Source: an uncultured Flavobacteriales bacterium | GTDB taxonomy: Bacteria; Bacteroidota; Bacteroidia; Flavobacteriales_E; Vicingaceae | Assembly (NCBI GenBank): GCA_905479995.1 | Contig: CAJQON010000036.1 | Span: 1 to 49,542, forward strand | Reading direction: 5' to 3' | Length of the DNA stretch: 49,542 nucleotides | Shown here: positions 20,051 through 43,871 of the stretch, one piece after another | Position numbering within the stretch: position 1 is the first letter of the stretch | How the letters are laid out: each line of letters starts with the position of its first letter | Position numbers and translations under genes: made by a program | Notes under the pieces: model-generated | The model's database searches: none | The model's input: the letters and a program-made list of their open reading frames with translations, nothing else | What the model was told of the DNA's origin: nothing

Positions 20051-20089
20051 ATTGTTTGTATTTTTATAGCATATAAAAAAGGGTAGATT

Positions 20090-23050: not shown

Positions 23051-23051
23051 C

Positions 23052-27364: not shown

Positions 27365-27480
27365 TGAATAGAATTACCTAAAAGTAAATAAAGCGATGGA
27401 AATTACTCGGAATTAGTAGAAAAAAATGAATATCTTTACCTGATAGCCATCTACTTAACGCGGTAAATTTTTAATTGAAA

Positions 27481-28293
27481 ATGTCCATCGATAAAAAAGC
27501 CATTTATATACACATTCCAAAAACAGGAGGTTCTACTTTACACGCTATAATTAGTAGAGTTTACAAGGATAAGGAACGTTTTCATGTTAAAAACAACAGA
27601 GAACTTCCACTATTTGATCAGTTATCTGATAGCGAAAAGTTAGACATTAAAATTCTAGAAGGACATATGGCTTTTGGACATCATGACAAATTTTTAACTC
27701 CAAATGAAGTGAATTATTTTTCGATGATGAGAGATCCTGTTAAACGAATTATCTCCAATTACAACCATATTATTACTAGACCACGACATGATTACCACAA
27801 AGAATTAGTTGACAACAATTACACGTTAAAACAATATGTAGAAAGTGGAGTTATAGCGAACACAGAAAATGCACAAGTAAGGCTGTTTGCAAACGCCATA
27901 AACCTTCCTCATGGAAAGTGTACCAAAGAAACACTCGAAACAGCAAAACAAAACGTTGAAAATCATTTTTCTGTTGTTGGAATTAATGAATGTTATGATG
28001 AGACATTGCTTTTAATTAAAAACTACTACAATTGGGCCACACCTTATTACGTCAGAAAAAATGTAGGTAATCGTGGCTCGAAACCTGCCGATTTAGATGA
28101 TGAAACTCTAGCAGCCATACAAAAATATAACGCCTTAGACATTGAATTGTACGCTTGGGTAAAAGAACGACTAGCACAACAAATTTTAGCTGAAGGTGAC
28201 AGCTTTCAAAAACAATTGAGCTCCTTTCAAAAAAAGAATAAGGTGGTTCAAAAGATTGTTCCAATTAAAAACAAATTATTTCATAATTCGTAG
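27481..28293 (+). CDS. Sulfotransferase of the heparan 2-O type (PF03567-like)
   Basis: A 270-residue protein from the ATG at 27481; a TTG two codons earlier is possible. It has the short P-loop IHIPKTGGSTLH (about residues 10-21) and FSMMRDPVKRIISNYNHI (about 79-96), the signatures of carbohydrate 2-O-sulfotransferases. It starts the large plus-strand unit that runs to 41493. A polysaccharide acceptor is plausible from the family. The spacing before the next gene is four bases if that gene starts at GTG 28298. Confidence 0.85.
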   Translation: MSIDKKAIYIHIPKTGGSTLHAIISRVYKDKERFHVKNNRELPLFDQLSDSEKLDIKILEGHMAFGHHDKFLTPNEVNYFSMMRDPVKRIISNYNHIITRPRHDYHKELVDNNYTLKQYVESGVIANTENAQVRLFANAINLPHGKCTKETLETAKQNVENHFSVVGINECYDETLLLIKNYYNWATPYYVRKNVGNRGSKPADLDDETLAAIQKYNALDIELYAWVKERLAQQILAEGDSFQKQLSSFQKKNKVVQKIVPIKNKLFHNS

Positions 28294-28297
28294 GTCG

Positions 28298-29038
28298 GTG
28301 AATACATTCCAACGAAAAATAGCAGCTATCAAATTAGGGTTAAAATCCATTCAACCAGATGATACTTTTGTTGTGTCTTATCCAAAATCGGGGAATACTT
28401 GGGTTCGTTTTATTCTATCCAATTTACTATCAGACCAAAATATTACCTTAAAAAATATTGATGAATATGTTCCTGATTGCTATAATTTTAAATCCATAAT
28501 TAATAAAACCTTATCCAAACGATTTATCAAAACGCACGATTGTCATTTAAGCAGTTTCCCAAAAAGCATCTATATTTATAGAGATTATCGCGATGTGCTC
28601 GTTTCTTATTATCACTATCAAGTTGGTTTAGGTGAATTTACTGGCAATCTTAGTTCCTTTATACGTCAAGAAAATTCTGGTTTTGGCTCATGGACCAACC
28701 ACATCAACTATGCATTAGCTTTTAAGCAAAAGCATCCCGCTAGAATTTTAATGCTATCCTACGAAGATTTACTGAAAAATACGAGTAGTAACATTGATAA
28801 AATTGCTCAGTTTTGCTCCATTCTTCCTTTAAAAAGTACTTCGGAAATCGAACAAATTTGTTCGTTTGATTCCTTAAAAGAAAATGAAGCCATCAACGGC
28901 AGAACATTCGATAAAAATGAAATTACCTTTTTTAGAAAAGGTACAATTGGACAATGGAGAAATGAACTTTCGGAGGAAGATCAAAATTGGTTAACGAACA
29001 AGTATAAAACTACTTTAAAACAACTCGGATATCTTTAG
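28298..29038 (+). CDS. Sulfotransferase (PF00685-type)
   Basis: A 246-residue sulfotransferase of the cytosolic sulfotransferase class. The P-loop is VVSYPKSGNTWVRF (about residues 24-37), the 3'-phosphate segment is YIYRDYRDVLVSYYHY (about 92-107), and a C-terminal GTIGQWRNELS matches the class motif R-K-G-x-x-G-x-W (here FRKGTIGQWRN). The open frame extends to a TTG at 28256, inside the preceding gene, but GTG at 28298, just after that gene's stop, is the better start. Substrate unknown. Confidence 0.87.
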   Translation: MNTFQRKIAAIKLGLKSIQPDDTFVVSYPKSGNTWVRFILSNLLSDQNITLKNIDEYVPDCYNFKSIINKTLSKRFIKTHDCHLSSFPKSIYIYRDYRDVLVSYYHYQVGLGEFTGNLSSFIRQENSGFGSWTNHINYALAFKQKHPARILMLSYEDLLKNTSSNIDKIAQFCSILPLKSTSEIEQICSFDSLKENEAINGRTFDKNEITFFRKGTIGQWRNELSEEDQNWLTNKYKTTLKQLGYL

Positions 29039-29039
29039 A

Positions 29040-29942
29040 ATGAAAGCGCCCAACTCGATATTCGCAGATATGTTCAATAAACTTACTTATAAAAGTACAG
29101 TAACTAACGCCAGTTTAAAACCCAATAAATGGGTCAACAAATTAGACATGGAACCGATTTGGATTTGCGGAATGTTTCGTTCTGGAACTAGCTTAACTAC
29201 TCAAATTGTAAGTGAACTAGGAATTGACATTGGTCCTGAAAACGACCTGTTGCAACCGAAAGGACATCGTGCAAAATTAAATCCTAATGGATTTTTTGAA
29301 AACTTTTTAATGATGGATTTTAGCTCACACACTTTTAACCTATTAGATGCTTGGGGAGATAATCCTCCAGCAATAGATGCAGTTAAAAAATTAGACATTC
29401 ACAACATCGATTACAAAAGCTTTGTTTACGACTCTATTGTGAATTTTCATGACGATAGAATTTCTAATGCCAACAAAAAGCGAATTCTTAAAACATACTA
29501 TCCTGGCAATATAGAACAGTATTTAAAAGATAATTTTAACCCACGTTTTGCCATAAAAAATCCACACTTTAGCCTTCTTTATCCTTTATTAAATAACATT
29601 TGTAAGAGAGGTGAGTTCTTGGTAGTTTTCCGAAACCCTACAGACACCATTAACTCCGCGAAACAAGTTACACCGAATGCTAACGAAGAACTGTATTGTA
29701 GTTACTACGAAGGTTTAATGAGTTTGGATAATGCATTCTTTTTCGATTTTGATGAGCTAAGAAATAACCCACAAAAATCAATCGAATTATTAGCTAAGCA
29801 CCTTAAAATTGAAAGCATAAATCCTGAAATCAATAAAATCGTTACACAAAAAACATCAACCGAATTGTTGTCTCCAGAAATTTCAGAAAAAGTTAAAAAT
29901 TTATACCTTAACCTCAAGTTAAAAGCAATTAACCGACCGTGA
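29040..29942 (+). CDS. Sulfotransferase family protein
   Basis: A 300-residue protein with the loop ICGMFRSGTSLTTQIVSELG (about residues 42-61) and the 3'-phosphate segment VVFRNPTDTINSAKQV (about 196-211), where the usual Asp after Arg is Asn. This resembles the sulfotransferase branch that modifies glycans and lipids (PF13469-like). It starts one base after the preceding stop and ends in the GTGA overlap with the next gene. Confidence 0.78.
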   Translation: MKAPNSIFADMFNKLTYKSTVTNASLKPNKWVNKLDMEPIWICGMFRSGTSLTTQIVSELGIDIGPENDLLQPKGHRAKLNPNGFFENFLMMDFSSHTFNLLDAWGDNPPAIDAVKKLDIHNIDYKSFVYDSIVNFHDDRISNANKKRILKTYYPGNIEQYLKDNFNPRFAIKNPHFSLLYPLLNNICKRGEFLVVFRNPTDTINSAKQVTPNANEELYCSYYEGLMSLDNAFFFDFDELRNNPQKSIELLAKHLKIESINPEINKIVTQKTSTELLSPEISEKVKNLYLNLKLKAINRP

Positions 29943-31135
29943 AAATTTTACACATTAACACATATAATACTGGTGGCGCAGCAATTTCTTGCTTAAGAAC
30001 GCATAAAGCGCTACTCGAAAACGGTATTAACTCTAAAGTTTTACTCCGAAATAAAACCAATACTAAAACAGAAGAGGTTTATGAAATTTGGGAAGAATTA
30101 AATGTTATTCAAAAAACAAACAAATTCATCCAACAAAAACAATGGAACAAAAAGCAAAGTGCTGTTAAAGAAAAGTGTTCAGAAATAGGAGAATTGTTTA
30201 GTGTTTTCGATTCTATTTGGGAGGTTTCCAATACCCAATTATTTAAAGAAGCCGACATTATTAACCTGCATTGGATTGCTGGATTTGTTAATCCTGCCAC
30301 ATTTTTTAAATCTATTGGTAATAAACCCGTTGTTTGGACATTGCATGATTTTGCTCCTTTTAATAACGGACTACATTACCCCAACGAAAACACCAGTATT
30401 TTTACCGAAGAAATAAATCACAATAAAGCCCTGATCTACCCAAATTTATTTGAAAATACCACAATTGTAGGTCCAAGTCAATATATCATAAACCACTCGC
30501 AAAAGAGTGAATGGTTTTCGAAACTAAATCATCAAAAGATTACTAATTGCTGCAATACAAAACAGTATAAATATCTAGTTAAAAGTGATGCTAGAAAAGA
30601 ACTTGGGTTTCAAAAAGAACAAAAAATTATTCTTTTTGTAGCTGAGCAGCTCAATTATAAAAGAAAGGGATATAAACTCTTAACTGAAGCGGTAAAACTG
30701 CTTAATGAAATTAATCTTCAAATTATTGTAGTCGGCAACGACTATGAAGAAGACAATACTTTTTCGGACAGTATTACTCATTTCCCTCACATAGATAGCG
30801 AGGCTCAACTGAATAAAATTTATGCTGCTGCAGATGTATTTATCGCTCCTTCTTTAGATGACAACTTACCCAATACCGTTATGGAATCTTTGTGTTCAGG
30901 CACACCGGTAGTTGCATTTAATATTGGCGGAATGCCTGAAATGATCAACTCAGAAAAAAATGGAATCTTAGTGGAAACAACTTCAGCAGCAGCATTATCG
31001 AAAGCAATTACCAAAAGCCTAAAGTTTAAATGGAATAATGAAGCTATTGCTTTGGCAGCTAAATTAACTTTTAGTGAAAGCAATTGCGCCAATGCTTACA
31101 TTAATGTTTATAAAGCATTATTAAATGATTGCTAA
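29939..31135 (+). CDS. Family 4 glycosyltransferase
   Basis: A 398-residue GT-B enzyme with a GTG start. The N-terminal domain begins MKILHINTYNTGGAAISCLRTHKAL, with the glycine-rich acceptor loop. The C-terminal donor domain has the conserved AADVFIAPSLDDNLPNTVMESLCSGTPVVAF stretch with the E-x7-E pair (two glutamates in the VMESLCSGTP and GGMPEM regions). It probably adds a sugar from a nucleotide donor to a lipid-linked intermediate. It is sandwiched between sulfotransferase genes, overlapping the previous by four and the next by 11 bases. Confidence 0.9.
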   Translation: MKILHINTYNTGGAAISCLRTHKALLENGINSKVLLRNKTNTKTEEVYEIWEELNVIQKTNKFIQQKQWNKKQSAVKEKCSEIGELFSVFDSIWEVSNTQLFKEADIINLHWIAGFVNPATFFKSIGNKPVVWTLHDFAPFNNGLHYPNENTSIFTEEINHNKALIYPNLFENTTIVGPSQYIINHSQKSEWFSKLNHQKITNCCNTKQYKYLVKSDARKELGFQKEQKIILFVAEQLNYKRKGYKLLTEAVKLLNEINLQIIVVGNDYEEDNTFSDSITHFPHIDSEAQLNKIYAAADVFIAPSLDDNLPNTVMESLCSGTPVVAFNIGGMPEMINSEKNGILVETTSAAALSKAITKSLKFKWNNEAIALAAKLTFSESNCANAYINVYKALLNDC

Positions 31136-32039
31136 ACGCTACATAAAAAGAGTTTCGTTGTTCTTTATTTTAATAAAGGATAGGTTATTTGGATCTAATA
31201 AAAAATTCGATCCAAATACAATTAATAATTTAATTTTAATTGTTGGTCCTTACCGAAACTTAACCACCTATTTTGCTTCAATACTTTCTATCCACCCAAA
31301 TATTTCAGTACTAAACCATGCGGGAATTCGAGTTTTTAAAAATGCCAACATTAACTTTTTACGCAATTATTCGCTCACCAAGTACCATAACTTTTTAAGG
31401 TTTTTTGATTACGCTATAAAATCTGGTCATCAAGGAATGAGAGGCGGAAGCATTCAATATTCGCATGCATTTAAATCGAATGAAAAATTACAACACCTAT
31501 TTCAACAAAAAAGTGAGCAGCAAAATTCCAGTTCTTCTTTCGTTTGGAAAGAATCGCAAATGGTAAGCAACCACTTTCTAGAAAACCCTACAGAATTTCA
31601 AAAAATTTTAGATCAGAATAAGGCCATTAAATTTCTATTCCCCATAAGACATCCGTTGGATTGTGTAAAATCTAATTTAGTTACTAATAAACATCAGTTT
31701 TTTAAATTAGGACATGACGCTGGAGTTGACAAGTTAATGGATGTAATTTTTGAAGAGTATCTATTTTTCCTTCAACTCAAGAAACAACACACACAGCGTG
31801 TGTTTTTTATATTTGAACACAAAATAAGCGAAACAACTATTACCAATTTGTGTAATTTTTGTAATGTAACCACTGATGATAGCTGGCTAAAAACAACCCT
31901 AGAGGAATATCGAATAAACAAACATTACGAGCACAGCTCTAGCGAATTAGAGACTACTACCACAAAAATTAAAAGTCTTTTTACAGATTACCCTAATTTT
32001 CAAAAAGAGTTATTACTATTAATGGAAAAATCGAATTAG
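31125..32039 (+). CDS. Divergent sulfotransferase-like protein
   Basis: A 304-residue protein that keeps the general sulfotransferase layout but with altered loops. LIVGPYRNLTTYFASILSIHP (about residues 36-56) corresponds to the phosphosulfate loop, where the usual R-S-G-T-T reads R-N-L-T-T. FLFPIRHPLDCVKSN (about 169-183) is the 3'-phosphate segment. PAPS binding may be weakened or the enzyme may use another donor. It overlaps both neighbours (11 bases and 1 base), so it is translated with them. Call rests on loop pattern and context. Confidence 0.6.
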   Translation: MIAKRYIKRVSLFFILIKDRLFGSNKKFDPNTINNLILIVGPYRNLTTYFASILSIHPNISVLNHAGIRVFKNANINFLRNYSLTKYHNFLRFFDYAIKSGHQGMRGGSIQYSHAFKSNEKLQHLFQQKSEQQNSSSSFVWKESQMVSNHFLENPTEFQKILDQNKAIKFLFPIRHPLDCVKSNLVTNKHQFFKLGHDAGVDKLMDVIFEEYLFFLQLKKQHTQRVFFIFEHKISETTITNLCNFCNVTTDDSWLKTTLEEYRINKHYEHSSSELETTTTKIKSLFTDYPNFQKELLLLMEKSN

Positions 32040-34522
32040 TGGAAACAACTTCAGCTAAAATATCACCTTCTAGCTTACCAAAATCAGTAGGTAAGTATTT
32101 GCTAATATTACTTCAGCTAGGGGCACTATTTTTTGTTGTTACTCAATTTAATATCCAGGAAGAAACCCGCTTACCCAAAATATTTCCTGTTATATTTATT
32201 GGATTTGCCATACACTATTGGTTGCCAACAAGAGTAAAAACACCGTTTTTTGTGTTATTATCATTTGCAGCCATTGTAGCTGTATTAGGAATAATAAATG
32301 GATCAATATTAATTGCAATAGGGCTTACCCTAATTGCGAGTTGCCACTTACCAATTAAGTACAACTACAAACTAGTTTTAATTGGGTTAATCGTTGCTAC
32401 TTTAATTCTTTTTCGAGCAAATGTTTTTGATATCAAACCTATTCCCTTGCTCATTCCATTTATAGGCACCATGTTTATGCTACGCCTCATTATTTATGTT
32501 TATGATTTAAAGTATGAAGACAATACAAAAGACATTTGGAAACGGATTTCCTATTTCTTTTTATTGCCTAACGTATGCTTCCCACTGTTTCCTTTGGTGG
32601 ACTTTAAAATATTAAAAACAACTTATTACAACCGTGACAAACACGAAATCTACAACATTGGTTTAAGGAGAATTTTTAGAGGAATTATTCACCTACTCGT
32701 TTACCGAATTTTATACTTACTAGTTGTTCCCGATACTAGTGAAATAGACGGATTGTATAGCATTTTACAATTTGTAATTTTTAGCTACACTTTAATTCTT
32801 AGACTTTCGGGGATGTACCACATATCGCTAGGGATACTGAGCTTATTTGGTTTTAACCTTCCAGAAATATTCAATAACTATTTCTTTGCATCAAGCTTTA
32901 ACAACATCTGGAAAAGAATAAACATTTATTGGCGTGAAGCACTTATGAAAGTATTCTATTATCCAATATACTTTAAAATCAGAAAAATCAATTCTACTTA
33001 TGCCGTTTCCATCACAATAATTATTGTGTTTTTTATCAACTGGGCCATGCACGGCTATCAGTGGTTTTGGGTAAGAGGAACCTTTCCATTAGAAGCCAAC
33101 GATTTTTTATTTTGGATGGTTTTTGGAACTGCTGTAATGATCAATTCTATTTACCTCAAAAAATATAGAACTCCTAAAAAAATAAACGCTGTCAATCATG
33201 TTTCTTTTAAAACGCGGTTTATTACTGTAATTAAACCCATAGGAATGTTTTGTTTCATGAGTTCTATTTGGCTCATGTGGTCTAGTTCGTCTTTACAAGA
33301 GTGGGCATACTTACTGCGATTCTTTTCTTCTGGAAGCACTACTGAATACTTAACGGTTGTTGGTGGGTTTATTGCTTTTTTAATCTTATTGATATTACTT
33401 AATTACTCCTACGGCAATGGGGTTTTAAGAAAATTGATTGATTTCTATACCAAGCATATTACCGTAACTACAGGAGTTCTAATTATATTATTATTAGCGA
33501 TATCCTTCCCACAATTAACAAAACAAGTCACTATAGAAAATGAACCGTTTATTTCCTTTTTACAAGAAAACAAATTGAGTTCTAAAGACAAAAAGACCAT
33601 GGAACGTGGCTATTATCAGAAGCTACTTACAAGTGACAATACCTCTTTAAAACTTTCTCAAACACAAGTCAACAAACCCAAAGATTGGTCTAACAATAAT
33701 GCCATAATAAGAACAAGTACCATTTTAAGAAAACAACTCAAACCCAACTTTAGTACTCCTTACAAAAATGCTTTATTAACAACCAATTCATGGGGAATGC
33801 GTGACCAACCCTACACCTTAGAAAAAGATTCCAACACTTATCGAATTGCATTATTGGGTGGCTCTTATGAAATGGGATCGGGAGTAAACAATGGCGAAAC
33901 TTTTGAAGCTCAAACCGAAATTTTACTCAATAATAAGTATAAAAATAACATTGAAATTTTAAATTTTGCCGTTGGAGGATACCATCTTATTGAAGGTGTG
34001 TTTAATGCTGAAAATGCATTCAGGTTTAACCCTAACGCACTAATTTATACCGCACATAGTAACGAATTTTATCGTTTACAAAATAGACTAATAGACTTAC
34101 TTACATCTGACATAAAAATTACAGACCCTTTTATTGCCAACATAAAAAAGCAAAGTGGAATAACTGTCGAAATGTGCTCATTGGAGAAACAAAACAGGGT
34201 AAAACCATTTATGTCTTCAATTATAAAATGGGGTTATGGTACTATTGCAAAAGAGTGTAAATTAAAAGGAATTACTCCTATTTGGCTTTATGTTCCAGCA
34301 TTAGGAGATACCGGAGATAATGACTTTGAGCAAGTTTTAAAAGAAGCAAAACTGGCAGGTTTTTTAATTGTTAATATAGAATCTCCTTACGAGAAATATA
34401 AAGTAAATGCATTAAAAGTTGCTCCTTGGGATTATCATCTCAATAAAAAAGGACACCAATTAATTGCAAATAAACTCTACAAAGAATTAATTTCACAAGA
34501 ACAAAATTTGAAACTTAAATAA
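32039..34522 (+). CDS. MBOAT membrane acyltransferase fused to an SGNH esterase/acyltransferase domain
   Basis: An 827-residue two-part protein with a GTG start overlapping the previous stop. The N-terminal about 490 residues hold about twelve hydrophobic segments and MBOAT signatures: the SFNNIWKRINIYWRE stretch (about 286-300), the YYPIYF turn, and the catalytic-type His338 in NWAMHGYQWFW. After the last membrane segment (about 481-495), the C-terminal part carries SGNH blocks: LLGGSYEMGSG with Ser609, NFAVGGYHL, HSNEFYRLQ, and D798-Y-H800 with the N-K-K-G-H tail. In D-alanylation, DltB (MBOAT) and DltD (SGNH) are separate proteins; here the equivalents are one chain. It is two bases before a carrier-protein gene. 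It probably moves an acyl group from the carrier across the membrane to a glycan (inference). Confidence 0.82.
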   Translation: METTSAKISPSSLPKSVGKYLLILLQLGALFFVVTQFNIQEETRLPKIFPVIFIGFAIHYWLPTRVKTPFFVLLSFAAIVAVLGIINGSILIAIGLTLIASCHLPIKYNYKLVLIGLIVATLILFRANVFDIKPIPLLIPFIGTMFMLRLIIYVYDLKYEDNTKDIWKRISYFFLLPNVCFPLFPLVDFKILKTTYYNRDKHEIYNIGLRRIFRGIIHLLVYRILYLLVVPDTSEIDGLYSILQFVIFSYTLILRLSGMYHISLGILSLFGFNLPEIFNNYFFASSFNNIWKRINIYWREALMKVFYYPIYFKIRKINSTYAVSITIIIVFFINWAMHGYQWFWVRGTFPLEANDFLFWMVFGTAVMINSIYLKKYRTPKKINAVNHVSFKTRFITVIKPIGMFCFMSSIWLMWSSSSLQEWAYLLRFFSSGSTTEYLTVVGGFIAFLILLILLNYSYGNGVLRKLIDFYTKHITVTTGVLIILLLAISFPQLTKQVTIENEPFISFLQENKLSSKDKKTMERGYYQKLLTSDNTSLKLSQTQVNKPKDWSNNNAIIRTSTILRKQLKPNFSTPYKNALLTTNSWGMRDQPYTLEKDSNTYRIALLGGSYEMGSGVNNGETFEAQTEILLNNKYKNNIEILNFAVGGYHLIEGVFNAENAFRFNPNALIYTAHSNEFYRLQNRLIDLLTSDIKITDPFIANIKKQSGITVEMCSLEKQNRVKPFMSSIIKWGYGTIAKECKLKGITPIWLYVPALGDTGDNDFEQVLKEAKLAGFLIVNIESPYEKYKVNALKVAPWDYHLNKKGHQLIANKLYKELISQEQNLKLK

Positions 34523-34524
34523 CC

Positions 34525-34770
34525 ATGGTTAACCAAGAAGAAATTAAAGCCATTCTATTAAATGGATATGTAGACGTTGATAATCCTAACGAATTATTAA
34601 ATGATACGCCACTAATTTCAAGCGGAATTTTAGACTCTATATCAATTTTACAATTGGTAGATGTATTGGAAAAAGAGTTTAGCATTGAATTTGAAGCTCA
34701 TGAAATTGATAGAGACAAATTTGATTCTATTGATTTAATTGTAGCATTAGTTAATTCTAAAAAGAAATAA
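34525..34770 (+). CDS. Acyl/peptidyl carrier protein of the Dlt/PltL type
   Basis: An 81-residue stand-alone carrier protein. The phosphopantetheine motif is GILDSISILQ with Ser38; the four-helix pattern and acidic composition are normal for DltC and PltL-like carriers. It lies between the MBOAT-SGNH gene (two bases) and the adenylating-enzyme gene (three bases), the arrangement expected if the adenylating enzyme loads it and the acyltransferase unloads it. It is quite different from the carrier at 20090. Confidence 0.88.
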   Translation: MVNQEEIKAILLNGYVDVDNPNELLNDTPLISSGILDSISILQLVDVLEKEFSIEFEAHEIDRDKFDSIDLIVALVNSKKK

Positions 34771-34773
34771 GCA

Positions 34774-36156
34774 GTGAATATTTACGACCTCGTATTTACT
34801 CATATCAACACCGAAAACCCCAACCTGGCTATATACGACAGTCAACTAATTTCTTATTCCTACAGCGACCTAGCAAAGAAAATAGCTCATATAGAAACAA
34901 CATTTAACAATATTGGTTTATCCAAAGGAAACATAGTCGTTTTACAAACAGAAAAATCGTTTAATGCATTGGCTCATTTATTATGCTGCATTAAAATGGG
35001 CATTATTTACGTACCAATTGCTGTTGATTCTCCCAGTGAAAGAACAAAAAAAATAATAGCTGCGTGTCAAGCCAACGCTGTTTTAAATGCTGACTATTCT
35101 TTAGAAAAAATAAACGATGCCAAAACCAATTTAAGTTCAGATGCCTATAGCATTTTATTTACTTCAGGTTCTACCGGAACTCCAAAAGGAGTGGTATGTT
35201 CGACTAAAGGCTTAATGGCTTTTATTAATTGGAGCTCTTCCGAATTTAACGTTACTGAAAAAGACCTTATTGCAGGCTATGCACCTTTTCATTTTGATAT
35301 TTCTACTTTCGATATTTTTGCAAGTATATCTAAAGGTGCGTCATTATGGTTAATAGATAAAACTTTGGGCGCCAACATCAGGTTAATTGGCCAACACCTC
35401 AAAACAATACAACCAACTGTTTGGTACACCACTCCTACCGTTTTTAACTTATTAAACGAATATGGGAAATTGCCCGAAAACTACTGCCCAAAAACAGTGC
35501 TTTTTGCTGGTGAAGTTTTTCCAATTAAACAATTAAATGCATTAAGACAGCAATGGCAAATTGCAAACTATTACAACCTTTACGGACCAACGGAAACCAA
35601 TGTTTGTACATATTTTAAATTGCCTCAACAAATTGAACAGAAGAGAACTATTCCTTATCCGATTGGAAAATCTTGTCCATATGTTACATTAAAAATTAAT
35701 GCAGCCAACGAACTTTTAGTTAGCGGAGAAACAGTATTGATTAACTACATCAACAACGCTGATTGCTTCGTTGAAGAAAATGGAATCAAGTGGTACAACA
35801 CAGGAGATTTGGTTAGCAAAGAAAACGACAACTTGCTGTACCAAGGCAGAACAGACAGAATGGTAAAACGCAGGGGTTACCGAATAGAATTAGGCGAAAT
35901 TGAAAATACACTCGCCCATCATGAAAACATTCAACAAGTTGCAGTAATTTGTGTTACAAAAAATGAGCTTCCTTACCTCATTCTTTTTTATTCTGGAACA
36001 AAAACAACGCCAACAACTCTTTTTACGTATTGCTCAAAAGCTTTGTTAAATTATATGATTCCTGATAAATTTATGTATCTTGAATCCTTCCCTATAAATG
36101 AAAATGGGAAAATAGACTACACACAACTAATCGATAATTTTAATCAACATGAATGA
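34774..36156 (+). CDS. Stand-alone adenylating enzyme, probably L-prolyl-AMP ligase
   Basis: A 460-residue ANL-family adenylating enzyme with a GTG start. Core motifs are ILFTSGSTGTPKG (127-139), NLYGPTE (268-274), YNTGD (341-345), the RTDRMVKRRGYRIELGEIE hinge (359-377) and NGKID with Lys446. Reading the ten specificity positions by alignment to GrsA gives D175, I176, F179, Y218, L243, A245, L269, V277, C278, K446. From memory, this nearly equals the code of prolyl ligases that start pyrrole pathways (PltF, RedM class, D-L-F/L-Y-L-A-L-V-C-K). It should activate L-proline with ATP and load Ser38 of the adjacent carrier. It overlaps the dehydrogenase gene by eight bases. Confidence 0.85.
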   Translation: MNIYDLVFTHINTENPNLAIYDSQLISYSYSDLAKKIAHIETTFNNIGLSKGNIVVLQTEKSFNALAHLLCCIKMGIIYVPIAVDSPSERTKKIIAACQANAVLNADYSLEKINDAKTNLSSDAYSILFTSGSTGTPKGVVCSTKGLMAFINWSSSEFNVTEKDLIAGYAPFHFDISTFDIFASISKGASLWLIDKTLGANIRLIGQHLKTIQPTVWYTTPTVFNLLNEYGKLPENYCPKTVLFAGEVFPIKQLNALRQQWQIANYYNLYGPTETNVCTYFKLPQQIEQKRTIPYPIGKSCPYVTLKINAANELLVSGETVLINYINNADCFVEENGIKWYNTGDLVSKENDNLLYQGRTDRMVKRRGYRIELGEIENTLAHHENIQQVAVICVTKNELPYLILFYSGTKTTPTTLFTYCSKALLNYMIPDKFMYLESFPINENGKIDYTQLIDNFNQHE

Positions 36157-37258
36157 TTACATCAATGGCATTAAATCTATAATTGATGAAATAGAAAAGT
36201 ATGACATCAATACTTTTTATGCTGAAAATAAATTTCCCGCAAAAGCATGGAAATATACTTTAGAGCATGTAATTAATCATCTTAATATTAACGACACAGC
36301 ATCTCTTGATGGAAACGCCATTTGCCAAGCCATGGAAGCCATTGGATATGCCTCTAAAGATGGAGGTTTAAATTTTGCAATAGGCGCGCAAACCCTTGCT
36401 GCTTCAATTCCATTGGCCATTTACGGAAGTGATGATCAGAAAGCAAAATACTTAAACACTATGCTAAATGGTGATACAATTTGTGCTAATGCAATAACAG
36501 AACCTGAAGCAGGTTCGGACATATTTTCGATGAGTACATCGGCCACCATACAAAATAATCAGTATCAATTAAACGGTATAAAAACTTTTTGCAGCAGCAT
36601 CAAAGAAGCCAACCTCGCTATTGTTTATGCTGTTACTGATAAAGATAAGGGTGCTCATGGCGGAATTTCCGCTTTTTTAGTTGAAAAATTGCAATTTAAA
36701 ACCGGACAAACCTATACCAAAATGGGTTTAAGAACTTGTTCTATTGGAGAATTAATTTTAGACAATGAGCTGATAAATTCAAACCAAATGCTCGGCAAAA
36801 CTGGTGCTGGATTTTCGGTATTTAACACTGCAATGGAATGGGAAAGAATTGGACTAAGTGCTATTTACGTTGGTACAATGCAACGTTTATTTGAGCAAGC
36901 ATTACACTATGCTAAAACTAGAAACCAAGGAGGAAAAGCAATCGGAAAACATCAAGCCATAGCCCACAAAATTGCCGAAATAAAAACCACTATAATAGCT
37001 TGTAGGTTAATGGTAAACAGTGCAGCTGCTAAGCTTGGAAATGACCGAACAGTTGGCGAAGACGCAGCCATGTGCAAATGGTACGTTAGTGAAGCTTATG
37101 TTAAAGTTTGTGAACAAGTAATGCAAATATTTGGCGGCAATGGCTATATGGAGGAATATGAAATAGAGCGCTGCTTAAGAGATGCGCATGCCAGTACAAT
37201 TTACTCTGGAACAACAGAAATACAAAAAAATATTATTGCCAAATGGAACGGCTTATAA
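36149..37258 (+). CDS. Acyl-CoA dehydrogenase-like flavoenzyme, probable prolyl-carrier dehydrogenase
   Basis: A 369-residue FAD enzyme of the acyl-CoA dehydrogenase fold. Visible are ITEPEAGSD (116-124, FAD contact), the C-terminal QIFGGNGYMEEYEIERCLRD region (326-345) and IYSGTTEIQ (351-359). The catalytic Glu of medium-chain enzymes aligns with Ser353. Instead, Glu232 in AMEWERIGL aligns with the base of isovaleryl-CoA dehydrogenase and its relatives, a class that includes the pyrrole-forming PltE-type enzymes. Beside the prolyl ligase and carrier, the expected reaction is four-electron oxidation of prolyl- to pyrrolyl-2-carboxyl-carrier protein. Confidence 0.85.
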   Translation: MNDYINGIKSIIDEIEKYDINTFYAENKFPAKAWKYTLEHVINHLNINDTASLDGNAICQAMEAIGYASKDGGLNFAIGAQTLAASIPLAIYGSDDQKAKYLNTMLNGDTICANAITEPEAGSDIFSMSTSATIQNNQYQLNGIKTFCSSIKEANLAIVYAVTDKDKGAHGGISAFLVEKLQFKTGQTYTKMGLRTCSIGELILDNELINSNQMLGKTGAGFSVFNTAMEWERIGLSAIYVGTMQRLFEQALHYAKTRNQGGKAIGKHQAIAHKIAEIKTTIIACRLMVNSAAAKLGNDRTVGEDAAMCKWYVSEAYVKVCEQVMQIFGGNGYMEEYEIERCLRDAHASTIYSGTTEIQKNIIAKWNGL

Positions 37259-37269
37259 GTTAAGGGTAT

Positions 37270-38667
37270 ATGAATGATTTTTACGATGTAATAATAATAG
37301 GAGGAGGCCCTGCAGGATCAGCAAGTGCTATTCATTTAAGAAAAGCTGGACTGAAGGTTATTCTTTTTGAAAAAGAAAAATTTCCGCGAGCGCATGTTGG
37401 CGAATCATTGGTTCCTTTTTGTTATGAACTATTCGATGAATTAGGCATTTTAGAAGAACTACAAAAAACGGCCGTAAGAAAGCCAGGCGTTCGGTTTATC
37501 AATAAAGATGGATCAAAATCTACCACTTATTGCTTTAAAAATATACTGGACGGACCTAACCAAATGTCCTTTCATGTACTAAGAGAAAAATTTGACAAGC
37601 AATTGTTAGATAGGGCTCAAAAACTAGGAACAGTTGTACATGAGCAACACAGAGTAACAAATGTAAATTTAGACAAAACGGACGAAGTTGAAGTGACTGT
37701 TTCCAATCCAAACAATGAAAAAAGTACTGTAAAAGGTAAGTTTTTAATTGATGCTACAGGACAAGATTCTTTCTTAGCCAAGAAATTAAAATCAAAAGAA
37801 AAACATAAAGATTTAGACCGAATTGCGTTTTTATCACATTGGAATTGCGACACGAGTAAAGAAGGTGTTAATGAAGGTTTATTGCAATTGCTTTACCTAT
37901 CCGACAGTAAAAAAGGATGGATGGGCATTCAGCCTGTTGATGTTAATCGCTTAAGCGTTGGGTTAATTTGCGACAATAATTATGTAAAGCAAGCAAAAGC
38001 AAAATATGCTGCAGATGGCATTGAAAATTGGAAGGAACAGTTTTATGTAGATCAGGTTTTATCCTCCCCTTTTACCAAAGATTTGTTGGCTAACGCCAAA
38101 ATGATAAATAAACTATTGGTTGTAGGTGATTACAGTTACAAAATCACTAAAAAATTTGGCTCAAACTATGCCTTAGTTGGAGATGCAGCAGGATTTTTAG
38201 ACCCCATTTTTGCTACCGGAGTATACTTGGCTTTAAACACAGCCAAAAATACGGCCAACGCAATTGTCCGTCAACTAACCGAAGGAAAAGACATTGGCCA
38301 AAAAGAGTTAGCAGCATCCTATACTCAATATGAAGGAGCATTAGAATTGTTAGAGAAATTTATCAATAATTTTTACAATCCTGAATTTGTAAACTTAGCC
38401 GAAATACAATCAGATGTTGATTCAGAAAACAATGAGAACCATACTAAATCTATGATTGCCTTCTCTATAGTGCACTTTTTAATGGGTGGAGATTTTTACA
38501 ATGAGCACAAAAAATATTTAGAGTACTTAGACTTTTTAAGTCAACCAAAACAATTGGCACGTTATTACCACTTGGTAATTAACCAACCCAAATACAAAGA
38601 AAATTCTTGCGACTATTTAATGGAAGATGTTTTTCCGATGTTAAATGATGCTAACTTAACAGAGTGA
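37270..38667 (+). CDS. FAD-dependent halogenase-like monooxygenase
   Basis: A 465-residue flavoprotein of the PltA/CmlS/Bmp2 halogenase group. It has the GxGxxG motif at GGGPAGSASA (11-20), PRAHVGESLVP (39-49), the putative catalytic Lys71, and the second FAD segment ALVGDAAGFLDPIFATGVYLAL. The W-x-W-x-I-P motif of this family reads GWMGIQPV (about 216-223 by position near 37915), so the second Trp is Gly and Ile is Gln. The enzyme may therefore halogenate, hydroxylate or oxidise the carrier-bound pyrrole. No flavin reductase is visible in the window. It is 11 bases after the dehydrogenase gene and overlaps the next by four. Confidence 0.8.
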   Translation: MNDFYDVIIIGGGPAGSASAIHLRKAGLKVILFEKEKFPRAHVGESLVPFCYELFDELGILEELQKTAVRKPGVRFINKDGSKSTTYCFKNILDGPNQMSFHVLREKFDKQLLDRAQKLGTVVHEQHRVTNVNLDKTDEVEVTVSNPNNEKSTVKGKFLIDATGQDSFLAKKLKSKEKHKDLDRIAFLSHWNCDTSKEGVNEGLLQLLYLSDSKKGWMGIQPVDVNRLSVGLICDNNYVKQAKAKYAADGIENWKEQFYVDQVLSSPFTKDLLANAKMINKLLVVGDYSYKITKKFGSNYALVGDAAGFLDPIFATGVYLALNTAKNTANAIVRQLTEGKDIGQKELAASYTQYEGALELLEKFINNFYNPEFVNLAEIQSDVDSENNENHTKSMIAFSIVHFLMGGDFYNEHKKYLEYLDFLSQPKQLARYYHLVINQPKYKENSCDYLMEDVFPMLNDANLTE

Positions 38668-39794
38668 TAAAGTTTAATATTCCATACTCAACCAGTAACC
38701 AAATTGATGCTTTAACTGAAGTTATCTCTTCCAATAAATTTTCTGGAGGTGGTCAGTTTGGTTCGCGAGTAAAAGAGTTATTATTAAAAGAATATCAATT
38801 TAAAAACACCTATCTCACTACTAGCTGTACTTCGGCCATTCAACTTTGCGCCATGTCTTTAAACCTACAACCTGGTGATGAAGTAATTATGCCATCATTC
38901 ACTTTTCCATCTACTCCTACTCCTTTTATACAAGCAGGTGCACAAATTGTTTTTGCCGATTGTGGAAGTGAATATCCAAACACCACACTATCATCTATAA
39001 AAGCAGTAACCACTGTAAATACCAAGGCAATTATGGTGGTTCATTATGGTGGATACAATGCTGAAATTGACTTAATAGCCAACTTCTGTAAACAAGAGAG
39101 TATTATATTAATTGAAGATGCTGCTCAAGCAATAGATGCTTGTCACAACGAAAAGCCTTTAGGCTCATTTGGCGATTTTAGTGTTTTTTCATTCCATGAA
39201 ACAAAAAACATAAACTGTGGTGAAGGTGGATTATTGGTGGTGAACAGTGAAGATTACATCGAACAAATAAACCAAATTTTTGAATACGGTACCAATAGAA
39301 CAGATTTTTTAAATGGCAACATTAACAGCTATGAATGGGTCGGTTTGGGATTGTCATTTGTGCTTTCAGAAATAAACTGTGCAATGCTTTACAGCCAATT
39401 ATTAATGGTAAAAAATGTTACCAAACATCGCAGGCTACTTTGGGAAACCTACTTTACAGAACTTAATGATTTAACCAAGAAACACCAATTAACGTTATCT
39501 GCTGTTCAAACACAAAACTCCAACTTTCATACCTTTTACATTGCATTACCCAACAAAAAAAGTACAGCAAGTTTCATAGCTTTTATGCAACAAAACAACA
39601 TACAGTGCACCACCCATTATTTTCCTTTACACGAAAGCAAATATGGTTTAACAAATTATAAATCTAACACACAACTAACCAATGCATCTTATTTTGGGTC
39701 ATGTTTGGTTAGATTACCCCTACATTTTAACTTAACACAAAACCAAGTATTAACCATTACTTCTCACGTAAAAGAATTTTTTGAATCTCACTAA
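38664..39794 (+). CDS. DegT-family sugar aminotransferase of the WecE/RffA type
   Basis: A 376-residue PLP enzyme with a GTG start. It closely resembles WecE/RffA (dTDP-4-amino-4,6-dideoxygalactose transaminase): IPYSTSNQIDALTEVISSNKFSGGG at the start, GDEVIMPSFTFPSTPTPF, and the PLP lysine in FSFHETKNINCGEGG. Reaction: glutamate-dependent amination of dTDP-4-keto-6-deoxyglucose. Its presence implies that a 4-amino-4,6-dideoxy sugar is part of the product. The upstream dTDP-sugar genes are not in this window. The end overlaps the ABC exporter start by 14 bases. Confidence 0.85.
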   Translation: MIKFNIPYSTSNQIDALTEVISSNKFSGGGQFGSRVKELLLKEYQFKNTYLTTSCTSAIQLCAMSLNLQPGDEVIMPSFTFPSTPTPFIQAGAQIVFADCGSEYPNTTLSSIKAVTTVNTKAIMVVHYGGYNAEIDLIANFCKQESIILIEDAAQAIDACHNEKPLGSFGDFSVFSFHETKNINCGEGGLLVVNSEDYIEQINQIFEYGTNRTDFLNGNINSYEWVGLGLSFVLSEINCAMLYSQLLMVKNVTKHRRLLWETYFTELNDLTKKHQLTLSAVQTQNSNFHTFYIALPNKKSTASFIAFMQQNNIQCTTHYFPLHESKYGLTNYKSNTQLTNASYFGSCLVRLPLHFNLTQNQVLTITSHVKEFFESH

Positions 39795-41493
39795 AGGCAT
39801 ATCACTAAAACAGCTTATTACCTACAATAAAAACTATGTATTGTTGGGTATTGTTTTGTTAATCATTAACAAAACTGCGGTTATGACAATGCCATATATG
39901 AGCAAACTTTTAATTGATGATGTAATTGTGAACAGTGATGATTTGTTACTCAAAAAAATCGTGTTAATTATTGCGCTGTCTTTAATCATACAGGCATTTA
40001 CCTCTTTCATCTTATTTCAATTACTTAATGTTAAAGCACAAAAAAGAATAGCCGAAATAAGAACGTTATTCTTTAAAAAAATCACCCAATTGCCCATTCC
40101 TTATTTTAACAACTCCAATTCTGGAGCATTGGTTTCTCGTACTTTAAATGATTTCGAAAGCATAAGAATTTTTATAGGAACAGGAATTGTTCAATTAATT
40201 GGTGCCTTCATTTCAATTTCATTTGCTCTTACGTTAATGCTTTATCTCAATACAGAATTAAGTCTTTACCTCATTACTCCTTTGTCTATATTCTGCTTTA
40301 TAATCTACTTTATTTACAAAACTCAAAAACCGGCATTTAAAGCAAAAAAAGTAGTTAGAGCAGATGTTGCAGCCAATTTAACAGAAGCTTTTAGAAACAT
40401 TAAAGTAATCAAAGGGTTTAATGGAAATGAATTTTCTACTCAACTGATGCAAGGAAAATTTTATGCCTTATTCCTTTCCATAAAATCTACTATTACTACC
40501 ACTAACCTTATTATTAGTTTAGGAATTCTCTTTATTGGTTTAACCACCATAATTGTTATTTGGTTTGGAGGAAACATGGCCATTAACCAACAAATTTCTA
40601 TTGGAGAACTTTCTACATTTACCATTTACTTGGCGTTTTTAATTGGTCCTATTTATCAAATAACTAAAGTTTTAACACAGTTTACCGATGCTTCAGCCAG
40701 TGTCGATAGAATTAATGAAACATTGCTTCAGCCAAACGAGCCTTCTAATGAGACAGGAAATAGTGCCAATACTGATGAAACAATTTCCTTCAATGACGTA
40801 AGCTTTACCTACGACTCAAAAGAAGTATTAACTAACGCTTCATTTGAATTAAAACCCAAAACAATCACAGCAATTGTTGGGAAATCTGGAGCAGGAAAAA
40901 CAACTCTAACCGACTTATTAGCGGCATTTTACCAGCCATCTTCAGGATCAATTACAATTGACAGTCAAAACCTTAACAACATAAATATTGAACAATATCG
41001 TGCTCAACTTGGCTTTGTTTTTCAGGAAACCTTCCTATTTAATGGCACCATAAAAGACAATATTTTATTGGCTAAACCAGAAGCTTCTGAACAAGAAATA
41101 AATTCGGCTATAGAACATGCCAACGTCAGTGAGTTTTTAAGCGATTTACCAAAAGGAATAAATACTATAATTGGTGAAGCGGGTGGCAAATTATCTGAAG
41201 GACAAAAACAGCGAATTGCAATTGCTCGAGCATTTTTAAAAAATCCAACCATTTTAATTTTAGATGAAGCAACTTCTAATTTAGATGCCCACAACGAAAA
41301 ACTAATTAACCAAAGCATAGAAAAGTTGATGGCCAACCGAACCATATTAGTTATAGCCCATAAACTAGAAACCATTACCAATGCCAATCAAATAATTGTG
41401 CTCGATAACGGAAAAATTATTGAACAAGGATCCCACAAAGAATTGATTGAAAACAAAGCGAATTACTACCAACTTTACCACGCTCATCATTAG
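39781..41493 (+). CDS. ABC exporter, MsbA type (fused membrane and ATPase domains)
   Basis: A 570-residue half-transporter with a TTG start. Six transmembrane segments (about residues 15-310) with the typical ABC-exporter coupling regions precede an ATPase domain. The ATPase has Walker A GKSGAGKTT (about 367), the LSEGQKQRIAIARA signature (about 471), Walker B ILILDEATS (about 491) and the H-loop IAHKLE. It would work as a homodimer and move a lipid or lipid-linked product across the inner membrane. As the last gene of the decoration unit, it may flip the finished glycolipid. An AT-rich inverted repeat follows the stop but lacks a GC stem. Confidence 0.88.
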   Translation: MNLTKGISLKQLITYNKNYVLLGIVLLIINKTAVMTMPYMSKLLIDDVIVNSDDLLLKKIVLIIALSLIIQAFTSFILFQLLNVKAQKRIAEIRTLFFKKITQLPIPYFNNSNSGALVSRTLNDFESIRIFIGTGIVQLIGAFISISFALTLMLYLNTELSLYLITPLSIFCFIIYFIYKTQKPAFKAKKVVRADVAANLTEAFRNIKVIKGFNGNEFSTQLMQGKFYALFLSIKSTITTTNLIISLGILFIGLTTIIVIWFGGNMAINQQISIGELSTFTIYLAFLIGPIYQITKVLTQFTDASASVDRINETLLQPNEPSNETGNSANTDETISFNDVSFTYDSKEVLTNASFELKPKTITAIVGKSGAGKTTLTDLLAAFYQPSSGSITIDSQNLNNINIEQYRAQLGFVFQETFLFNGTIKDNILLAKPEASEQEINSAIEHANVSEFLSDLPKGINTIIGEAGGKLSEGQKQRIAIARAFLKNPTILILDEATSNLDAHNEKLINQSIEKLMANRTILVIAHKLETITNANQIIVLDNGKIIEQGSHKELIENKANYYQLYHAHH

Positions 41494-41549: not shown

Positions 41550-43871
41550 ATGAATTATTTAGATGAATTAAATGGCGCTCAAAGAGATGCAGTAGAAGCT
41601 ACAGAAGGCCCAGTTATGGTTATTGCTGGAGCCGGCTCTGGTAAAACACGTGTATTAACTTACCGAATTGCTCACCTCATTAACAAAGGAGTTGATCCAT
41701 TTAACATCCTATCCTTAACATTTACCAATAAAGCGGCTCAAGAAATGAAAGAGCGTATTGGAAAAATTGTTGGTTATAGCGAAGCAAAAAACATCTGGAT
41801 GGGAACCTTTCACTCTGTTTTTGCTCGAATTTTAAGAAGTGAAGCAGAGAAAATAGGCTACCCAAGCAACTTTACCATTTACGATTCTCAAGATTCTAAA
41901 AATTTAATAAAAGCCATTTTGAAAGAAGAAGGCTTAGATGAAAAAATATACAAGCCTGGCTTAGTACTCAACAGAATTTCTTCCGCAAAAAACAACTTAT
42001 TATCTTCTGCAGCATACAACAAAAACACCACCATTCAATCTGAAGATAGACAGTCGGCCAAGCCAAAAATTGGTGAAGTATACAAAATTTATGAAAGCCG
42101 TTGTTTTAAATCTGGCGCCATGGATTTTGATGATTTATTGTTTAAAACCAACGTTTTATTAAGAGATTTTCCTGACGTTTTAAACAAATACCAACATCGT
42201 TTTAAATACCTACTTGTAGATGAGTACCAGGATACGAATTTCTCGCAATACATTATCGTTAAAAAATTATGTGCCGCCTTCGAAAACGTTTGTGTAGTTG
42301 GTGATGATGCTCAAAGTATTTATGCTTTTAGGGGAGCAAACATCCAAAACATCTTAAACTTTAAAAATGATTATCCGGATGTAAGAACCTTTAAACTGGA
42401 ACAAAACTACCGCTCTACCCAAAACATTGTAAAAGCAGCCAATAGTGTTATTGCTCAAAACAAAGAGCAAATAGAAAAAAACGTTTTTACCGATAATGTT
42501 GATGGGAAAGCCATTAAAGTTCATCGTGCAGCAACCGACAATGAAGAAGGTAAAATGATTGCCAACCTTATTTTTGAAACACAATTACAGCAGCGCGCCA
42601 AATCGAAAGATTTTGCCATTTTATACCGAACCAATGCTCAATCTAGAGCAATGGAGGAAGCCTTAAGAAGAAAAAATATTCCCTATAAAATTTATGGCGG
42701 ACAGTCGTTTTATCAACGTAAAGAAGTAAAAGATTTAATTTCTTACTTCCGAATAATGATTAATCCCAATGACGAGGAAGCTTTAAAAAGAGTAATTAAT
42801 TATCCGGCCAGAGGAATTGGAAAAACAACTTTAGACAAATTGACTATTGCTGCTAACAATCACCAAAAAAGCATTTGGTTTGTTATCAACAACCTCAACA
42901 ACATTAATGTTGGAATAAACAGCGGTGCTCAATCTAAAATAACTGAGTTTGTTAGCATGATAGCAAGTTTTGCTACTCAAATCAACTCTAAAAATGCTTA
43001 CGACTTGGCCAATGAAGTTGCTACAACTTCGGGAGTATTAAAAGACCTTTATACCGACAGAACACCAGAAGGAATAAGTCGTTACGAAAACATTCAAGAA
43101 TTACTAAACGGTTTAAAGGAGTTTACAGAAACCGACAATGAGGAAGAAGAAGATGTAACACCAAGAGGATTACCAGAGTTTTTGCAAGACGTAGCATTAT
43201 TAACCAATGCCGATGGCGAAAAGGATGAAGACAGAGACAAAGTAACCCTAATGACTATTCACTCTGCAAAAGGACTAGAATTTCCTTACGTAAACATTGT
43301 TGGGTTAGAAGAAAACCTTTTTCCATCTCAACTATCCTTAGCATCTAGAGCAGAATTAGAAGAAGAAAGACGGTTATTTTATGTTGCCATTACAAGAGCA
43401 GAAAAAGAATTACACCTCTCTTTTTCTACCAGCCGTTACAAATGGGGAAACCTACAATACTGTGAACCAAGCAGGTTTATTGAAGAAATTGAAGAACAAT
43501 TTTTAGACTACACTTACACCAAAGGAAGTAGTGCAGAACCTACCGGTTCTTCAGCTGGATCTTCTAACAGCTATGGGAATAACTACGGATCTAAAACGAG
43601 TTACAGCAAACCGAACTCTTTTCCTAAAAAGAAAAATCCGCCACCAAAAGTAATTCACTCCACGCCAAAAAATCTTAAAAAAATTAGTGGAAATACCGGA
43701 GATGTAAGTGCAAATACCTTAAACTTATCGGAAGGAATGATGGTGAACCACCAAAAGTTTGGAAACGGAATAATTGAAGCCCTGGATAGCGGAAAAGCCA
43801 CTATAAATTTTCAAAACATAGGCAATAAACAACTGTTATTAAAGTTTGCCAAGCTAACAATAGTAAAATAA
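41550..43871 (+). CDS. pcrA: UvrD/PcrA-type DNA helicase
   Basis: A 773-residue superfamily 1A 3'-5' helicase involved in repair and clearing of DNA-protein complexes. Motif I is AGAGSGKTRVL (about residues 29-39), motif II DEYQDTN (about 225-231), QSIYAFRGAN follows, and motifs IV-VI include QNYRS, TIHSAKGLEFPYV and YVAITRAEKELH. The C-terminal region ends in a low-complexity S/N/K-rich linker and a Tudor-like tail (GMMVNHQKFGNGIIEAL), as in PcrA. It starts 56 bases after the exporter and is probably a separate unit. Confidence 0.92.
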   Translation: MNYLDELNGAQRDAVEATEGPVMVIAGAGSGKTRVLTYRIAHLINKGVDPFNILSLTFTNKAAQEMKERIGKIVGYSEAKNIWMGTFHSVFARILRSEAEKIGYPSNFTIYDSQDSKNLIKAILKEEGLDEKIYKPGLVLNRISSAKNNLLSSAAYNKNTTIQSEDRQSAKPKIGEVYKIYESRCFKSGAMDFDDLLFKTNVLLRDFPDVLNKYQHRFKYLLVDEYQDTNFSQYIIVKKLCAAFENVCVVGDDAQSIYAFRGANIQNILNFKNDYPDVRTFKLEQNYRSTQNIVKAANSVIAQNKEQIEKNVFTDNVDGKAIKVHRAATDNEEGKMIANLIFETQLQQRAKSKDFAILYRTNAQSRAMEEALRRKNIPYKIYGGQSFYQRKEVKDLISYFRIMINPNDEEALKRVINYPARGIGKTTLDKLTIAANNHQKSIWFVINNLNNINVGINSGAQSKITEFVSMIASFATQINSKNAYDLANEVATTSGVLKDLYTDRTPEGISRYENIQELLNGLKEFTETDNEEEEDVTPRGLPEFLQDVALLTNADGEKDEDRDKVTLMTIHSAKGLEFPYVNIVGLEENLFPSQLSLASRAELEEERRLFYVAITRAEKELHLSFSTSRYKWGNLQYCEPSRFIEEIEEQFLDYTYTKGSSAEPTGSSAGSSNSYGNNYGSKTSYSKPNSFPKKKNPPPKVIHSTPKNLKKISGNTGDVSANTLNLSEGMMVNHQKFGNGIIEALDSGKATINFQNIGNKQLLLKFAKLTIVK

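Follow-up and report, generated by a model that had tools for sequence, protein, structure and literature searches.

What would an envelope acylation machine of the Dlt type do with enzymes that resemble those making carrier-bound pyrroles? The question is raised by a five-gene unit at 32039-38667 of the window, i.e., the whole stretch of DNA analysed, the 49,542 nucleotides of contig CAJQON010000036.1 from an uncultured Flavobacteriales bacterium (C36 of genome G000, 3.10 Mb and 98.2% complete; other genomes and loci are designated by G and L numbers). The answer that we consider probable is a Dlt-like envelope acylation system, in which a pyrrole-2-carboxyl group would be loaded on a carrier protein, tailored there, and transferred by an MBOAT-SGNH protein onto an exported glycan. 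This answer builds on the genes and their order, on pocket and catalytic residues, and on a linkage conserved between genomes.

All five genes lie on the plus strand, with coordinates and strand verified by a check of the open reading frames (ORFs). The first encodes an MBOAT-SGNH fusion, a putative transmembrane acyltransferase with a C-terminal SGNH domain (32039-34522, 827 residues). It is followed by an acyl carrier protein (ACP; 34525-34770, 81 residues, PF00550) with phosphopantetheine Ser38 in GILDSIS, and by a stand-alone adenylating (A) enzyme with a proline-type pocket (34774-36156, 460 residues, PF00501 and PF13193). An acyl-CoA-dehydrogenase-like enzyme (ACAD; 36149-37258, 369 residues, catalytic Glu232) and an FAD enzyme of the halogenase/monooxygenase superfamily (37270-38667, 465 residues, Trp_halogenase/FAD_binding_3, with Lys71, WMGIQP and FLDPIFATG) complete the unit. 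Gaps of 2 and 3 bp separate the first three genes, the A and ACAD genes overlap by 8 bp, and the FAD gene follows after 11 bp. The upstream neighbour stops at 32039, and the downstream gene starts at 38664, overlapping the FAD gene by 4 bp. An initial annotation, made without database searches, had described five adjacent, coupled genes here, and the ORFs together with Pfam and NCBIfam bear it out.

The substrate is addressed by the A enzyme. Its nine pocket positions, which were assigned by eye and which we take to correspond to gramicidin-synthetase numbering, read DIFYLALVC (D175, I176, F179, Y218, L243, A245, L269, V277 and C278). The references read DLLYLALVC in PltF, DLFYIAWVC in chain 7thn, presumably PigI, and DLMTLCTVA and DLMVFCTVA in two DltA proteins. 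The window pocket is identical to that of PltF at 7/9 positions, and all 16 tabulated cassette A enzymes agree at 7-9/9: twelve of them read DLFYLALVC, and the exact PltF string is found in L119 and L141. The two DltA references share 2-4/9 with PltF, and six A enzymes from other contexts in the same table share 4-8/9. When a 136-residue pocket fragment was compared with solved chains, 6o6e ranked first (91.6 bits), then 7thn (66.2), with DltA third (57.4). According to PMC11253843, 6O6E is PltF with L-Pro and PltL. Restricted to chains with a match over a single A stretch, the A profile yielded 390.6 bits for PltF 6o6e, 361.7 for 7thn, 332.0 for tyrocidine synthase 1 and 328.4 for DltA. By its pocket residues, the window enzyme is of the L-proline type, its activity being predicted, and the prolyl-type enzyme of the initial annotation agrees with a pocket that matches PltF and not DltA.

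Two other identities were considered for this enzyme. DltA is the best NCBIfam model for the whole protein (262 bits, under the cut-off of 476) and was rejected on the pocket residues. LgrA appeared as the top relative in whole-enzyme searches, an artefact arising because the bits of two domains (306 and 308 in the profile search) were added together. As for the carrier, its DS motif is kept in 16/16 aligned cassette carriers, and an ornithine-lipid ACP model (76 bits, cut-off 130) ranks ahead of the DltC models (31 bits, cut-off 68) in NCBIfam.

The top NCBIfam models for the ACAD are PigA (295 bits) and RedW (267 bits). As a single sequence against the PDB, it best matches the prolyl-ACP dehydrogenase 4irn (236.7 bits), and the second match (209.3 bits) is likewise a prolyl-carrier dehydrogenase. 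With a 10-row profile, 4irn is again first (467.5 bits), followed by an entry deposited as butyryl-CoA dehydrogenase (413.9 bits). Glu232 aligns with a position occupied by Ala in chain 6af6 and by Glu in 5zw0, and it is kept in 16/16 cassette ACADs and in 20/22 rows overall, the exceptions being Asp in L120 and L121. Such a Glu is needed in Bmp3, PltE and RedW, according to PMC11177257. Hence, the ACAD is a candidate prolyl-carrier dehydrogenase with a catalytic Glu, and the PltE-like dehydrogenase proposed initially is supported by this kinship and residue, as judged from sequence.

The MBOAT-SGNH protein was assigned through its relatives. A nine-row profile aligns with three Pfam-verified MBOATs over 312 columns (hhalign, 94.1%, E 1.2e-7), and in this profile-profile alignment His338 coincides with the WHG His of true MBOATs. 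The middle part of the window protein has weak matches to two of these three MBOATs, and a stand-alone true MBOAT (PF03062, 5.4e-30) occupies the same gene position in L069. The C-terminal part is matched by two GDSL-family proteins (L009 and L010), which points to an SGNH domain. His338, the linker pair Tyr525-Tyr526, Ser609 and His800 are kept in 15/15 aligned rows, the window included, and Asp798 in 11/15 (Asn in L067, L089 and L092, Pro in L124); the window copy has the full SGNH Ser-Asp-His. The linker Tyr pair is a candidate acyl shuttle only.

The FAD enzyme matches the solved chains 8zop (161 bits), CmlS (158), 5buk, which we take to be Mpy16 (149), and PltA (142). It has GGGPAG (GxGxxG) and Lys71, which aligns with the RK/KK Lys of two PltA-like rows at what is presumably the position of the catalytic Lys of flavin-dependent halogenases. 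In place of the WxWxIP motif, the window enzyme has WMGIQP. Of the 14 core FAD rows, eight have WxWxIP (type I) and six, including the window, have WxGxQP (type II), and the type II copies form one clade in a 16-row tree (support 100/99). In PMC5945002 and PMC10696468, WxWxIP is tied to halogenation rather than to monooxygenation or hydroxylation. Given the absence of WxWxIP, the type II clade and this literature, the window enzyme most likely acts as oxygenase or oxidase rather than as a halogenase. The "halogenase-like FAD enzyme" of the initial annotation holds as to superfamily ancestry, whereas a working halogenase in the window is not supported, given WMGIQP and a motif-less clade; the rest of that interpretation is supported in part, by genes, pocket, ACAD kinship and linkage.

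The ring-tailoring genes are the variable part of these loci, since FAD, halogenase and inserted genes differ between them; the constant part is the carrier, A enzyme and ACAD, usually with MBOAT-SGNH. A core FAD gene follows the ACAD gene in 15/19 genomes carrying the cassette, and L124 reaches a contig end. In the cassette of G021 (L059), a PltA-class pyrrole halogenase (7108-8484, minus strand) lies directly after the core FAD enzyme, and its matches to solved chains are PltA 5dbj (467 bits), 5buk (457) and ChlB4 (457), the next being 175. L059 combines a type II core FAD enzyme with this separate PltA-class enzyme. L127 (3641-6455, minus strand) holds two tandem core FAD genes, only one of which encodes WxWxIP, which offers a natural comparison between the types. 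Further variants include an Asp/Asn-hydroxylase-family gene (PF05118) directly after the ACAD gene of L125, where no FAD enzyme was found, with a relative in L126, and a luciferase-like monooxygenase gene between the A enzyme and ACAD genes of L070 (10529-11548, minus strand). On a Planctomycetota contig (L025, 152-2806), a PltA-like halogenase gene (WVWQIP) adjoins one for a prolyl-dehydrogenase-like ACAD.

This arrangement of genes is repeated across several families of Bacteroidota. The full order MBOAT-SGNH/ACP/A/ACAD/FAD is found in the window, L059, L026 (G023; JARGOE010000024.1, whose MBOAT-SGNH gene contains a run of N), L066, L067, L089, L123, L127 (with two FAD genes) and L070 (with its insert). 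L125 and L126 have the order MBOAT-SGNH/ACP/A/ACAD with no FAD gene beside it, and in L124 the ACAD gene follows the first three after a gap. Two secreted-protein ORFs separate MBOAT-SGNH from the cassette in L090/L092, and G445 has MBOAT-SGNH/ACP/A and A/ACAD/FAD, apparently split across two contig ends. In L069 the stand-alone MBOAT gene precedes the ACP gene, and MBOAT-SGNH is on another contig. L068, L119, L140 and L141 have a cassette with no adjacent MBOAT, and MBOAT-SGNH lies elsewhere in those genomes, reading as two ORFs in G268. In total, 19 genomes were counted as carrying the cassette. This count excludes L025 (PltA-like and ACAD genes only, on a 5.5-kb contig), L027, L115, L116 and L117; of 34 ACAD loci in one search, L025, L026 and L027 were followed.

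In an order-level sample of 46 genomes from one family, full-length MBOAT-SGNH occurs only in G000, G021 and G023, and the other 11 genomes with matches at E 0.001 have partial matches only. In a class sample, MBOAT-SGNH (E 1e-60) is present in 13/395 genomes, all 13 of which encode ACP-A-ACAD, nine of them next door. ACAD at 1e-75 is present in 6/395, and all six are among the 13 (Fisher p 3e-10, with kinship ignored). In a phylum sample, ACAD at 1e-110 is present in 7/395 genomes. G000, G759, G470 and G653 also have MBOAT-SGNH, at a different place from the cassette in G470 and G653, whereas it was not found in G241, G622 and G607. In those three, the neighbours of ACP-A-ACAD include large ORFs that give matches to the A profile, the only profile applied to them, as non-ribosomal peptide synthetases (NRPSs) would. 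G653 has four MBOAT-SGNH copies, including tandem genes in L143 (7782-13094, minus strand), and none in the stretches around its ACADs (L116 and L117). The initial annotation had proposed a genome search for MBOAT-SGNH beside PltF/PltE/PltA-like genes, and the result is a recurrent linkage, with a PltA-class halogenase in G021. A first count, in which MBOAT-SGNH often seemed to lack the cassette (7/13), was discarded, as five of the seven had ACP-A-ACAD adjoining and two had it elsewhere in the genome. A correlation of gene-gene distances (r 0.77-0.94, 12 loci chosen as complete) is not used as evidence because common descent would yield the same.

What the acyl group would be attached to is addressed by the surrounding genes. 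Pfam identifies sulfotransferases at 17124-18140, 26498-27364 (minus strand), 27475-28293, 28256-29038 and 29040-29942 (the last three on the plus strand), and a GT4 glycosyltransferase at 29939-31135 (plus strand). The gene at 31125-32039 (plus strand) is sulfotransferase-like, with no Pfam match and a weak match (23%, 1e-4) to a Pfam sulfotransferase of L067. A plus-strand block at 19040-23705, which recurs in related loci, comprises KASIII, a small ACP-like ORF (20090-20320, named by eye), KASIII, SDR, GT2 and GNAT-like genes, the GNAT match being weak (17.6 bits, cut-off 24.3); the product of this block may be a hydroxyacyl group destined for an amino sugar. A Cupin_8/JmjC-like protein (23695-24765, minus strand) and an Asp/Asn beta-hydroxylase family protein (PF05118, 25772-26515), which recurs in L067, L125 and L126, are also encoded in this glycan locus. 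Relatives of the window sulfotransferases occur in 18 of 21 scanned stretches (a count with no background rate; none in L068, L069 and L090), those of the SDR in 10 and those of the GNAT in 12, the stretches being non-independent (L026/L060 are one record, and L068/L088, L069/L087 and L090/L092 come from the same genomes). Given that sulfotransferases, glycosyltransferases, GNAT-like and neighbouring genes surround the cassette, the gene content speaks for an acceptor glycan that is sulfated and may contain an N-acylated amino sugar.

Downstream of the unit lie genes for a WecE-like sugar aminotransferase of the dTDP-4-amino-4,6-dideoxygalactose type (38664-39794, plus strand; NF008687, 395.7 bits, cut-off 375) and an MsbA-like ABC exporter (39781-41493, plus strand; PF00664 and PF00005). 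The aminotransferase was considered as a cassette member and dropped because it is not at that place in L059 or L026, the two loci from the same genus, and it is treated as a neighbour. The exporter stays near the cassette in both (59% in L059 and 57% in L026). A UvrD helicase gene (41550-43871) is also found near the locus in L059, L026, L066, L067, L070, L088, L089, L092 and L123, and its recurrence across several families suggests that variable surface-glycan genes have long occupied a fixed site here.

The off-loading step bears on the comparison with known systems. The initial annotation had noted no NRPS, and the condensation domain PF00668 was found in none of nine carrier genomes searched of the 19 (G000, the window's own, G021, G023, which is 82% complete, G187, G216, G422, G369, G213 and G120), against matches in 4/14 controls, in a search that did not extend to polyketide synthase domains. 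The thioesterase PF00975 is uninformative, as it matches in 9/9 carrier genomes and in 10/14 controls; the three places in G000 lie off the window contig.

The closest machine is Dlt, and the closest chemical precedent is the clorobiocin pyrrole ester on a sugar. Dlt (DltABCD/X), which D-alanylates teichoic acid, likewise has an adenylating enzyme, carrier, MBOAT and SGNH in one linked unit, with the A enzyme next to the carrier, as in the window, where the carrier gene lies 3 bp upstream of the A gene. However, the window pocket is of the proline type rather than the D-Ala type, MBOAT and SGNH are fused, and ACAD and FAD enzymes are added. According to PMC12148441, the carrier feeds the MBOAT in Dlt, MBOAT/SGNH pathways other than Dlt have no carrier protein and use acyl-CoA as donor, and bacterial systems are of two kinds, separate MBOAT/SGNH pairs and AT3-SGNH fusions, with an acyl-Tyr shuttle. 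A carrier-fed MBOAT-SGNH fusion would hence fall outside both kinds described there. The likeness to PatA/PatB, AlgI/AlgX, WssH and the AT3-SGNH fusions (OatA, OafA/B) lies in the MBOAT His, the SGNH Ser/His and a glycan-type locus; the former three are described as separate MBOAT and SGNH proteins using acyl-CoA, and the named fusions as AT3, in PMC12148441 and PMC9558356.

With PltF/L/E/A, PigI/G/A, RedW and CloN4/N5/N3, the unit shares a proline-type A enzyme, a free carrier and an ACAD, as well as the PltA-class halogenase in G021. It differs from type II pyrrolyl-carrier assembly in having a membrane acyltransferase at the expected off-loading position, with PF00668 not found in the nine genomes. 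In clorobiocin, carrier-bound proline is converted to pyrrole-2-carboxyl, which is finally found esterified to a sugar (PMC11218499). There, an antibiotic is the target of the acyltransferase CloN7 together with a second carrier, CloN1, whereas in the window an MBOAT-SGNH protein would act, probably on a polymer outside the cell. Transfer by CloN7 is soluble and cytoplasmic. The initial annotation knew of no described system of this design, and no description of the combination was found among the matches listed in the open-licence PMC literature, subscription papers being outside that search.

From these comparisons, we infer the product, each reaction, the transfer route and the acceptor as follows. 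The A enzyme would activate L-proline and load the carrier, and the ACAD would turn the proline on the carrier into pyrrole-2-carboxyl by oxidation. Tailoring of the ring may fall to the FAD enzyme, with oxygenation or further oxidation likelier than halogenation in the window. At the membrane, the MBOAT half would accept the acyl group that the carrier brings. From there the group would reach the SGNH Ser, perhaps by way of a linker Tyr, and a hydroxyl of the exported sulfated glycan would finally be esterified by the SGNH half.

Several observations weigh against this scheme. The window MBOAT-SGNH protein has no Pfam match, even at E 5, its predicted structure (window and two L026 pieces) was discarded at a mean pLDDT of 38.2, and the invariant linker Tyr pair (15/15) differs from the FxYxxF shuttle motif of PMC12148441. 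The ACAD scores lie under the NCBIfam cut-offs of PigA (500) and RedW (650). In L123-L127 the ACADs, at 280-320 bits, are not above other, ordinary ACADs of the same genomes, so that position and the Glu are what supports the assignment in 5/13 class genomes. Among solved enzymes, 4irn is the nearest, and its reaction may end at a dehydroproline, as that of AnaB does. At L125, L126 and L141, a search confined to the locus found no FAD gene next to the cassette. The unit is also patchy, being present in 3/14 genomes of the window's genus, and the cassette is not beside MBOAT-SGNH in 4/13 class genomes.

The last of these points leads to the alternative that survives best, though we consider it unlikely: the pyrrole would be made for a diffusible or lipid-linked molecule (antibiotic-like, or a sulfated glycolipid) that leaves the cell through the ABC transporter, and MBOAT-SGNH would acylate that molecule or use acetyl-CoA separately. 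MBOAT-SGNH also lies apart from the cassette in G470, G653 and G759, and an MsbA-like exporter and KASIII/SDR genes are nearby. Pyrrole esters are known on an antibiotic sugar (clorobiocin, PMC11218499), and non-Dlt MBOAT/SGNH systems take acyl-CoA (PMC12148441). Nevertheless, MBOAT-SGNH co-occurs with ACP-A-ACAD in 13/13 genomes, no condensation domain was found in the nine of 19 genomes searched, and the sulfotransferases, glycosyltransferases and SGNH domain suggest an exported glycan.

Quite unlikely, in our estimate, is that the ACAD stops after two electrons, so that dehydroproline (pyrroline-carboxyl) is moved, or that the FAD enzyme is needed to finish the aromatisation or to alter the ring before transfer. 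This would suit the rank of 4irn as top solved relative and the FAD enzyme after the ACAD in 15/19 genomes, yet PigA and RedW rank first in NCBIfam, L125, L126 and L141 show no FAD enzyme beside the ACAD, and the PltA-class halogenase implies pyrrole at least in L059.

A halogenated pyrrole in the window organism, otherwise compatible with the proposed envelope acylation, is improbable. Although Lys71 and the halogenase-superfamily kinship are retained, 8/14 core FAD rows have WxWxIP and G021 has its PltA-class enzyme, the window copy belongs to the six-member clade without the motif (100/99, 16-row tree). The motif is linked to halogenation over hydroxylation in PMC10696468, and L127 and L059 hold motif-less and motif-bearing copies together, as if their jobs differed. 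Finally, it is very improbable that proline itself or another amino acid is moved to the surface in Dlt fashion, with the redox enzymes belonging elsewhere, since despite DltA being the best NCBIfam model of the A enzyme and DltC models being among the carrier matches, behind the ornithine-lipid ACP model, the pocket agrees with PltF and not DltA, the A and ACAD genes share 8 bp in the window, and the pair recurs together.

Returning to pyrrole transfer onto an exported glycan, we lean towards an undescribed class of surface modification scattered through Bacteroidota, in which heteroaromatic (pyrrolyl) esters, halogenated or oxygenated in some species, would be placed on sulfated surface glycans by a one-protein, carrier-fed MBOAT-SGNH, with the ring chemistry taking place on the carrier between loading and export. 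If true, this would be a carrier-fed MBOAT/SGNH system besides Dlt. It would join envelope acylation (Dlt, Pat, Alg) with carrier-bound pyrrole chemistry (Plt, Bmp, Red), so far apart, and show natural-product chemistry decorating a structural polymer. The expectation is then that certain Bacteroidota carry a surface polymer with aromatic esters, halogenated in some species, a feature with potential relevance to surface recognition and to finding new acyltransferases.

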